This document shows, piece after piece, positions 712-2,222 of a stretch of 20,438 bases of DNA (the first letter of the stretch is position 1; each line of letters begins with the position of its first letter). Made by a program: the position numbers and the translations under genes. The notes below the pieces were generated by a model that made no database searches, was not told where the DNA came from, and saw only the letters and a program-made list of their open reading frames with translations. This DNA is from a virus, in the IMG/VR virus record IMGVR_UViG_3300020347_000727, positions 1-20,438 of that record; one strand, given 5' to 3'.

Positions 712-1290
712 CTACTTTTTATTGGTATAATAAAGATAGTCATCTATCCACTCTTCTATAGCAGGGGCATCAAACATTTGGGCATCTGAAAGAGGATCTG
801 TAAATACTAATGTTCCATCAGATCGGCTCATTACATTGGCTTCATGAAGGTCTAATCTACAATCTCCTGCCTGCCCTTCATACTCTAAATCCTCTAAAGG
901 TTGTAAAGATATTACATCTGCTAAATCTACTATCTTATTAACAGCTTCTTCTAGCTCTTCACTAGCCCAACAAGGTTTATCTTCTCCTTTTACTGCCCAG
1001 TCGTATAGTTGTTCGTAATCTTTAAGTTGTTTATCATTTAAAGGATATAGCTTCTCTAGCTTTACAGTATAAAACTCATTATAGTTATCGACATATAAAC
1101 TATGAAATTTAGGAAAATGTGTATTTTTTAATGATTTTATCTCTCTTAGATAATATAAATAAGGGTCAAATATATCTGCTCCTATTTTAACTATTTCTTT
1201 GTTACTATCAAAAGCAGCAGCATAACACCCGGAGCCTACATAGTTCATGTTTTTTAACGCATTTTTTAATATCTTATGTACGGTAGACAT
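712..1290 (-). CDS. Protein kinase-like protein (phage)
   Basis: This 192-aa protein carries the ordered landmarks of a small eukaryotic-like kinase fold. There is a glycine-rich turn VGSGCYAAAF (18-27), a candidate ATP Lys in EIVKIG (K35), a candidate helix-C Glu (E50), and a hinge-like VKLEKLYPL. The catalytic-loop segment is DLHEANVM, with D147 and N152 in the usual D-x4-N spacing, and the metal-binding DFG-equivalent is FTDP (D165). It is shorter than full Ser/Thr kinases. The D-L-H-x-x-N pattern also fits aminoglycoside-phosphotransferase-type folds, so the substrate is unknown. The start ATG has an SD-like AAGGAAAA. A structured RNA with an intrinsic terminator ends 28 nt upstream and may control it. 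Confidence 0.65.
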   Translation of the reverse strand: MSTVHKILKNALKNMNYVGSGCYAAAFDSNKEIVKIGADIFDPYLYYLREIKSLKNTHFPKFHSLYVDNYNEFYTVKLEKLYPLNDKQLKDYEQLYDWAVKGEDKPCWASEELEEAVNKIVDLADVISLQPLEDLEYEGQAGDCRLDLHEANVMSRSDGTLVFTDPLSDAQMFDAPAIEEWIDDYLYYTNKK

Positions 1291-1317
1291 TTATATTTTC
1301 CTTATAATTAAAAAAGT

Positions 1318-1354
1318 AAAAAGGCGCTCTTACTATAAGTTAGAACGCCTTTTT
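1318..1354 (-). terminator. Intrinsic terminator (possibly bidirectional)
   Basis: AAAAAGGCG (1318-1326) and CGCCTTTTT (1346-1354) form a perfect 9-bp inverted repeat, extended inside by TCT/AGA across a mismatch. The A and T flanks give a U-run on either strand. It closes the structured interval upstream of the kinase-like gene. Confidence 0.75.
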
Positions 1355-1490
1355 ATCTGCTGCCGTTTCCGAAATAACGGACTTAGTTACACTAGCAGAA
1401 TAGTGGTTAAACAATTTTTTTCGGATAGGATAGTTTAACATAACCCATAGTGATTTTTATGGTTTACTGGCATCACTTGACCAGCCCCTC
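1318..1490 (-). ncRNA. Candidate structured RNA / attenuator with complementary loops
   Basis: No open frame covers this gap. On the minus strand it holds five stems before a terminator. P1 is CTGG/CCAG (1484-1481, 1470-1467) with a 10-nt loop. P2 is CCAT/ATGG (1462-1459, 1448-1445) with a 10-nt loop. P3 is GTTAAAC/GTTTAAC (1439-1433, 1412-1406). P4 is TCTGCT/AGCAGA (1399-1394, 1361-1356), which encloses P5 CCGTT/AACGG (1380-1376, 1367-1363). Loop 1 has AGTGAT (1477-1472) and loop 2 has ATCACT (1454-1449), a perfect 6-bp complement suited to a kissing interaction. The terminator (1354-1318) ends 28 nt before the kinase-like gene. I do not recognise the family. It could be a riboswitch-type attenuator or an independent sRNA. 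Confidence 0.5.
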
Positions 1491-1505
1491 ATCTTAAACA
1501 AGTGT

Positions 1506-2222
1506 TTAAAGAAGAGAAACTAAATATCTTGTTTCAGAAGGAGAAGATACTTTAAATACTTTATCTTCTTTATTGTTTCTTTCTTCGATAGCTTTAGCTA
1601 ACGTATGATCATTACCGCCCTCTTGAGTGTCATCCCCAAAAAATAATATAGGAATATTTTCAAAGTAATCTAATATTTGACTCTTATCCTTACCGTCTCT
1701 ATATATGTCAAAACCAGTTCTTCCGGCAATCTGTGCTGTAATATTATATTTATCTTTAAAAGCATTATTAAACTTTATAGATAAGTTTAACCTTTCTTTA
1801 GTGTTTTTGTCAAACTCAGAGTATAATATTCTTTGTAGAGGTGTAGCATTTCTTCCAACTATACTAAAGTTTAGCATACCAGGTCTTTTGTCAAAATGAA
1901 ACCCTGTCTTGTGTTCAAAAGTACTTTTAGTTAGTTCACTGTTAAGCCAATCTAATACTTCGGTAGGAGTAATCCAGTCTTCTCTATATACTTCTTGTCC
2001 TTTTTGCCATACAGAGTTTCCTGAGCAATTAAAACTATATGAAATTATGTTCTCTAAAAACCACGTATCTAGTTGTTCTTCTGTTTTAACGTAGTCGCTT
2101 CCTGTAGCTAAATAAATACTATAAGACATAGATAATCCTACAAGTTCTTGTAAGAAGAAAGGATCTATTTTTTCTCTAGGGTCTGTAAGAGTACCGTCTA
2201 CATCAAATATTATAGCAGTCAT
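1506..2222 (-). CDS. Phosphomannomutase, eukaryotic-type HAD family
   Basis: PMM interconverts mannose-6-P and mannose-1-P, feeding GDP-mannose synthesis. The 238-aa product follows the eukaryotic PMM1/PMM2 pattern rather than bacterial ManB. It has the HAD nucleophile motif FDVDGTLTDPREKI (D7, D9), the LATGSDYVKTEEQL segment, the cap-domain sugar-binding stretch KRPGMLNFSIVGRN (R113, R124), and the C-terminal FFGDDTQEGGNDHTL Mg-binding loop. Length is close to the 240-250 aa of the family. Its ATG overlaps the stop of the upstream gene as ATGA, so translation is probably coupled. It belongs with the other sugar genes in the window (9708-10517, 12608-14085). A related HAD phosphatase activity cannot be excluded. 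Confidence 0.85.
   Translation of the reverse strand: MTAIIFDVDGTLTDPREKIDPFFLQELVGLSMSYSIYLATGSDYVKTEEQLDTWFLENIISYSFNCSGNSVWQKGQEVYREDWITPTEVLDWLNSELTKSTFEHKTGFHFDKRPGMLNFSIVGRNATPLQRILYSEFDKNTKERLNLSIKFNNAFKDKYNITAQIAGRTGFDIYRDGKDKSQILDYFENIPILFFGDDTQEGGNDHTLAKAIEERNNKEDKVFKVSSPSETRYLVSLL

Follow-up and report, generated by a model that had tools for sequence, protein, structure and literature searches.

The window, meaning the whole stretch of DNA that was analyzed, is a 20,438-base virus record. Its minus strand reads from a phosphomannomutase-like gene (1506-2222) across a 215-base gap into a kinase-like gene (712-1290), and the gap is occupied by a structured RNA on the same strand, at about 1492-1310. 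The locus sits among phage tRNA genes. The parts, all on the minus strand, are given below in the order of reading, where lineages A to D are the groups of records carrying the RNA and PK1 to PK3 are its predicted pseudoknots.

1506-2222, minus strand: phosphomannomutase-like HAD phosphatase gene, upstream of the RNA (Pfam PMM, E = 4.8e-24)
1310-1492, minus strand: whole RNA, consisting of a body (1492-1356), a terminator and a U-tract
1467-1484, minus strand: P1, which is PK1 stem 1, CUGG (1484-1481)/CCAG (1470-1467), loop UCAAGUGAUG; invariant in four lineages
1449-1477, minus strand: PK1 stem 2, AGUGAU (1477-1472) with AUCACU (1454-1449); 3 of 6 pairs changed on both sides
1406-1439, minus strand: P3 hairpin, GUUAAAC (1439-1433)/GUUUAAC (1412-1406), 20-nt loop; 7 of 7 pairs invariant in four lineages
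1368-1425, minus strand: PK2, P3 loop UCCGAAA (1425-1419) with P5 loop UUUCGGA (1374-1368); predicted loop-loop kiss
1390-1405, minus strand: P4' hairpin, CACU (1405-1402)/AGUG (1393-1390); absent from the first-pass annotation
1356-1399, minus strand: PK3 (formerly "P4"), P4' loop UCUGC (1399-1395) with GCAGA (1360-1356); joins the 3' end of the RNA body
1363-1380, minus strand: P5 hairpin, CCGUU (1380-1376)/AACGG (1367-1363); paired variants in B, C and D
1310-1354, minus strand: intrinsic terminator and U-tract; the 3' arm ends at 1318, 27 nt before the kinase ATG at 1290
712-1290, minus strand: T7 gp0.7-like (probable) protein kinase gene, downstream of the RNA (PHROG 15752, E = 4.7e-16)

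The first-pass annotation, made from the letters of the window, had stated that no frame is open in the gap. A 63-aa ORF on the plus strand (1247-1438) does overlap the gap without crossing the whole of it, but no coding frame runs across the gap, with at least 2 stops in each of the six frames in all 5 sequences examined. A short frame does start from a conserved AUG of the RNA (MRGWS[S/G][D/N/K]ASK...). It stops after 11, 14, 19 or 25 codons, no Shine-Dalgarno is evident before it, and the changes within it track the pseudoknot, so it was set aside; a leaderless peptide from that AUG is at most a remote possibility. The 5' end of the RNA is placed near 1492, at the onset of conservation, the block that is invariant in the four lineages beginning at the A of AUGAGGGG; this is a position inferred by comparison, and the covariance model described below, R1, locates the RNA at window 1496-1352. 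No convincing sigma-70 promoter is found: the possible boxes ahead of AUGAGGGG match poorly and are not the same from lineage to lineage, and a consensus promoter scan of the window gives no more sites than shuffles do. In lineages C and D there are 73-74 bases from the upstream stop codon to the conserved AUGAGGGG with no evident similarity between the two stretches, which fits a transcript start near the AUG.

A protein search with the kinase returned six contigs in two lineages, of which A comprises L001-L004 together with the window and B comprises L005 and L006 (kinase 76% identical). A kinase profile search added lineage C (L164 and L165, which do not differ anywhere in the 1.4 kb that were compared), with a kinase 47-48% identical, and a DNA pattern taken from the RNA alone added lineage D, a single contig (L172) whose kinase is 49% identical, making four lineages in all. 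The covariance model R1 was built from lineages A and B only, and it scores lineage C at E = 3.7e-18 and lineage D at E = 8e-21. Among 11 records it locates the RNA in 9, once in each of those to which the loci belong, and not at all in DSS3_VP1 or DSS3_PM1. Counting the window, 10 of 10 records from four lineages have the RNA immediately before the kinase gene, a position that is observed directly, and the same ten have the phosphomannomutase gene upstream of the RNA, that of L165 being assigned by its identity to L164 over the 1.4 kb compared.

Wider searches brought no further members. An 18-mer shared by lineages A and B returns the same 6 contigs only. A looser pattern returns 12 contigs, namely the 9 carriers plus L169 (E = 0.3), L170 and L171, the last two without a model match, and we take these three as chance matches; likewise a P3 pattern returns 10, the 9 carriers plus L173, which has no model match and was rejected. 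GTDB genome contigs were scanned with a single 17-base pattern, and its 37 matches are read as chance, 36 of them lying inside stop-to-stop frames of at least 173 codons. The strongest results against that reading are L198 (E = 4e-6) and L185 (E = 0.005), both within long frames, which score because the pattern itself was selected for; in L177 (E = 0.19) the similarity ends with the pattern. A PK2-only pattern gave at least 116 new loci (at least 119 stretches), and with 26 other loci the lowest E was 0.054, with no members among the matches listed. By blastn, lineages A, C and D find no copy in 50,697 annotated phages (lowest E 0.2), and lineage A finds none in plasmids (lowest E 2). The true range of the RNA may be wider than was found.

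The carriers are uncultivated marine viruses of bacteria. On a 75.8-kb relative (G001), the replicative helicase has its best matches in Vibrio phages at about 30% identity, two of which, from the records examined, are classed in Demerecviridae, the T5 family, and the window DNA ligase also has its best matches in Vibrio phages (33%). Because these identities are only about 30% and 33%, "T5-like" here means a distant relation to phage T5.

The pairings of the first-pass annotation are all in the sequence: P1 (CTGG/CCAG, loop TCAAGTGATG), P2 (CCAT/ATGG, loop AAAAATCACT), P3 (GTTAAAC/GTTTAAC), P4 (TCTGC/GCAGA), P5 (CCGTT/AACGG) and the terminator hairpin. It is also right that AGTGAT and ATCACT are exactly complementary, and a shared 6-mer of this kind arises in 0.9% of random 10-nt loop pairs of equal composition. 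What does not hold up is the kiss between hairpin loops 1 and 2 that it drew from them. P2 is present in the window and has its stem intact in lineage A only (15 of 24 cells paired across the alignment). Lineage B has lost the stem and keeps the pairing of loop 1 with AUCACU; in lineage C that pairing becomes GGUAAC:GCUACC with one A.C mismatch, and in lineage D it becomes GGUAAA:UUUACC, lengthened to eight pairs. Since P2 is lost in B to D while the loop 1-AUCACU pairing is kept, this pairing is best taken, on the comparative evidence, for an H-type pseudoknot (PK1), with the invariant CUGG/CCAG as its closing stem, and not for a kiss of two hairpins.

The remainder of the body is organized around P3 and P5. 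The seven-pair, A-U-rich P3 stem never varies, which suggests that its sequence itself is recognized. P5 changes to CCAUU/AAUGG in B, CCACU/AGUGG in C and CCGCU/AGCGG in D. A true loop-loop kiss does exist in the model, between the P3 loop and the P5 loop (PK2), and it was absent from the first-pass annotation; in C and D its six-pair core UCCGAA:UUCGGA is replaced by CCCGAA:UUCGGG and the seventh, outer pair is lost; in L002 it is the first pair that fails. The same kiss could also join two molecules into a dimer. The P4' hairpin appears as CGCU/AGCG in B, CGUU/AACG in C and CGUU/GAUG, with two G-U pairs, in D. The "P4" of the first-pass annotation, TCTGC/GCAGA, exists as a pairing, but it is better described as PK3, between the P4' loop and the 3' end of the RNA body, with the variants UCUAC:GUAGA in B and C and UCCGC:GUGGA in D. 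The loop lengths would suit P4' and PK3 forming an H-type pseudoknot together, and the two could also be mutually exclusive rather than simultaneous.

With lineages A and B alone, 46 pairs including all crossing helices give 99.6% of 230 cells paired and 3 pairs changed on both sides, against 0 in any of six slid versions; among shuffles such a number of double-changed pairs is not rare (161 of 500), while the number of double-changed cells is (1 of 500). The alignment of all four lineages has five distinct sequences and 27 pairs and was fitted to P1, P3, P4 and P5, not to PK1. It gives 99.3% of 135 cells paired and 9 pairs changed on both sides, and 0 of 500 shuffles are as high on either measure; slid versions have 0-2 pairs changed on both sides, and the count of further pair types is one that shuffles often reach (189 of 500). 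This alignment assigns PK3 a count of 4, because lineage D is shifted by one base, and the hand alignment gives 2. In the hand alignment, with lineage A represented by the window, 103 of 104 pairs in the five variable helices are standard, the best of the 23 other arm-to-lineage assignments reaching 100. Ten pairs are changed on both sides: 3 in PK1, 1 in PK2, and 2 each in P4', PK3 and P5. The 104 do not include the outer seventh pair of PK2 (failing in C and D) or the fifth P4' pair of lineage A (failing in B). The stems CUGG/CCAG and GUUAAAC/GUUUAAC are the same in every lineage and therefore carry no covariation evidence. The compensated pairings are a direct observation, and the fold with three pseudoknots that they describe is, in our estimate, almost certainly correct.

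The alternative that these are chance hairpins in an AT-rich intergenic gap can hardly be entertained. The gap is indeed short and AT-rich, and P2 looks just like such a hairpin, but the covariation in four lineages and the model matches at E of 1e-18 to 1e-21 are against it. None of 200 shuffles of the RNA stretch folds as well as the stretch itself (z = -3.7), to which the terminator contributes much. The structured RNA of the first-pass annotation is thus strongly supported, homologs in related phages keeping the loop complementarity by compensatory changes.

The terminator hairpin, followed by a U-tract in all four lineages, stands closely 3' of the body with a folding energy of -15.6 to -19.7 kcal/mol in six sequences from the four lineages; a simple terminator scan with a strict loop rule omits it, and folding shows it. 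Its core is common to A and B, and its sequence is unrelated in C and D. Its presence and placement are plain observations: from the end of the terminator to the kinase ATG there are 24-29 nt in all four lineages, the window having 27 nt where 28 had been counted previously. Since the spacing is kept despite unrelated sequence, a terminator at that place appears to be selected, and not its letters. A promoter would scarcely fit into those 24-29 nt, so that the kinase is probably expressed by read-through of the terminator.

Such an arrangement is open to a cis explanation, already raised in the first-pass annotation as an attenuating riboswitch, by which a pseudoknotted aptamer would sense a ligand or factor and gate the passage of polymerase into the kinase gene. 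The order and spacing of body, terminator and ATG are fixed in four lineages, and with hardly any promoter room read-through is the likely route; a cis-regulatory leader, too, would be expected to keep its place before one gene, as the RNA does in 10 of 10 records. Pseudoknots, moreover, are frequent among aptamers. No antiterminator was found: the complementarity of the terminator 5' arm to the body is no better than that of shuffled arms in six sequences (68, 76, 140, 141, 240 and 262 of 300 shuffled arms pair with the body as well), and the terminator has an entirely different sequence in C and D. When truncated transcripts are folded to minimum energy, a method that admits no pseudoknots, 2-9 arm-body pairs form, so a weak coupling of body and terminator is possible. 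The RNA accompanies one neighboring gene pair only, and hence no set of ligand-related genes. The fixed order thus speaks for an attenuator and the pairing against it, and we consider it unlikely. The self-contained small RNA, the other suggestion of the first-pass annotation, is favored by the same facts: a body ending in a terminator of freely changing sequence, arm-body pairing at the shuffle level, and, as for self-terminated small RNAs generally, a body plus a computed intrinsic terminator with no coding frame across the gap.

The first-pass annotation did not recognize the family, and neither does Rfam 15: none of its families reaches the gathering threshold in sequences from lineages A to D. 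With matches up to E = 10 admitted, the highest score on the window is 19.8 bits, against the 48.5 needed, to cow-rumen-4 in the terminator region. The titles and abstract starts listed by literature searches yield no description of this RNA, a word search being a weak instrument for an unnamed RNA. The closest comparisons are with RNAs of phage tRNA regions. GOLLD and ROOL have been described from phages and prophages, frequently close to tRNA islands, and have no known function (PMC12286853). GOLLD (RF02032) and ROOL resemble the RNA studied here as elaborate phage noncoding RNAs with kissing loops near tRNA islands, but GOLLD is much larger, many examples exceeding 800 nt (PMC12286853). Rfam detects GOLLD in the genomes of lineages C and D and nothing at the RNA studied, the two being neighbors in the same region, with GOLLD about 1.4 kb (C) and 2.9 kb (D) downstream. 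The GOLLD matches are at L164 4339-4785 and L215 17572-18017, with 197 and 209 bits against a gathering score of 150.

Likeness to manA (RF01745) and wcaG (RF01761) lies in their being marine, phage-borne structured RNAs, and manA is present in the lineage D genome, but neither matches the window RNA even at E up to 10. They have been presented as riboswitch candidates, with manA commonly in potential 5' UTRs (PMC2864571); here, a terminator separates the RNA from the gene. The manA RNA in lineage D, at L172 5538-5744 (L215 16859-17065) among tRNA genes, scores 55.5, barely above the gathering score of 55.2. Two other features of lineage D were noted: an alternative oxidase gene among the tRNA genes (Pfam AOX, E = 2e-81; L215 11742-12344, which is L172 421-1023), and a tRNA with anticodon CTA at L172 4866-4940, named tRNA-Pyl by ARAGORN and possibly an amber suppressor.

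Small RNAs inside tRNA clusters are known from T5 (RNAI, RNAIII, RNAIV, RNA1, RNA2, RNA2H and RNA3) and T4 (rnaC and rnaD), with lengths of 73-172 nt. Six of the T5 RNAs are annotated "stable RNA with unknown functions" and the T4 pair "small, stable RNA"; three of the T5 small RNAs are annotated as tRNA-like, which is a difference. With filters off, R1 has no match at any of these RNAs; its best scores, 9.8 bits in T5 (E up to 2) and 7.9 bits in T4 (E up to 10), lie elsewhere. Homology to rnaD, which also begins AUGAG, was considered and dropped, R1 giving nothing there. The RNA therefore resembles the class of phage RNAs found in tRNA regions and is a member of none of the families tested.

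The window has a second unannotated structured RNA on the minus strand at 239-442, directly after tRNA-Arg, the place that rnaD has in T4. Its fold has z = -2.8, and it belongs to no Rfam family. It is 82.6% identical in L042 and 76% identical over 51 nt in lineage B, which keeps the two 3' hairpins, with stems that are different but matching and the loop CUGCAGAA; blastn finds nothing in those loci of C and D that were searched.

PHROG 15752, which the protein encoded after the RNA matches, is annotated as protein kinase and inhibitor of host transcription. No Pfam family reaches its cut-off with this protein, and a search of PDB sequences at E up to 1 gives nothing. Of five AlphaFold models, one has a mean pLDDT of 74.8, the other four ranging from 40.6 to 48.3. 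Because this best model matches kinases and aminoglycoside phosphotransferases at E of about 1e-4 to 1e-3, with TM-scores, normalized to the query length, between 0.32 and 0.43, "kinase-like" is a likely but not a certain description. In DSS3_VP1 and DSS3_PM1, considered as carriers and rejected, there is a kinase relative and no RNA, and the kinase gene begins 25 nt after the preceding gene. The lineage D contig has a second gp0.7-like kinase gene (L217 11184-11264), the likeness being by eye, with no Pfam match. About 45 nt before its ATG is a terminator-like hairpin, AGGCAAGG/CCTTGCCT, followed by a T-run, with no RNA of this family; G+C is higher around this gene, and the contig may be composite.

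The question is then whether RNA and kinase are partners. In toxIN, a pseudoknot RNA, a terminator and a protein gene follow one another as they do here, and the terminator between RNA and toxin gene regulates their stoichiometry (PMC5772629). A pair laid out like a type III toxin-antitoxin would have the RNA bind and restrain, or activate, the kinase, with a leaky terminator keeping the RNA in excess. Here, too, a terminator stands between a pseudoknotted RNA and the gene that follows, the RNA lies directly before the kinase in all ten records, and the kinase matches a PHROG annotated for inhibition of host transcription. The differences are that the RNA is a single complex fold instead of 36-nt tandem repeats (one R1 copy per record, no repeated unit in the sequence), that the protein is kinase-like and not an endoribonuclease of the ToxN/CptN/TenpN type, and that the locus is on a phage. 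PADLOC returns nothing for the window and lineage D kinases and a weak DrmMI match (E = 0.005) for that of lineage C. The kinase relatives of the DSS3 phages do without the RNA, and it is hard to see why a lytic phage should need an antitoxin against the enzyme with which it takes over its host. We accordingly rate this pairing as improbable, the least likely of the functional readings. Its specific form, that the three-pseudoknot RNA binds the gp0.7-like kinase and times its attack on host proteins, with the leaky terminator setting the RNA:kinase ratio, is just as much a long shot; if it were true, the type III layout would have a variant built on a kinase, or RNA-controlled kinases would have a counterpart in phages.

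Phage PhiTE has an expanded pseudo-ToxI that acts against ToxN, so that pseudoknot RNAs of phages acting as decoys are documented, and PK1 by itself covers 36 nt, as much as one ToxI unit (PMC3475682). As a counter-defense decoy, the RNA would mimic a host RNA or a type III antitoxin and titrate a host defense or processing protein. It is present in one copy without repeats, which counts against this, and the decoy seems to us a rather poor prospect, slightly behind the attenuator.

The account that we prefer, and think probable if well short of certain, is that of a discrete phage noncoding RNA, finished at its terminator, made in excess over the kinase, and acting in trans through its fold. 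A noncoding RNA of about 180 nt would start near 1492, and its core would compact through three crossing pairings, PK1, the P3-P5 kiss of PK2, and PK3. The transcript would end at its own intrinsic terminator, if that works as computed, leaving the RNA in excess and the adjoining kinase to be expressed by read-through. The finished RNA would then act in trans, most likely by binding a protein or an RNA. The trans-acting RNA, the attenuator, the decoy and the RNA-kinase pair are not fully exclusive of each other.

To the phage RNAs, these findings add a small family with a covariation-backed fold, in which three crossing helices are fitted into less than 140 nt. We know of no concrete, testable partner for GOLLD, ROOL or the stable RNAs of T4 and T5, and the fixed, terminator-linked coupling to one kinase gene suggests such a partner here. 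At about 180 nt, the RNA is also a far easier object of study than GOLLD.
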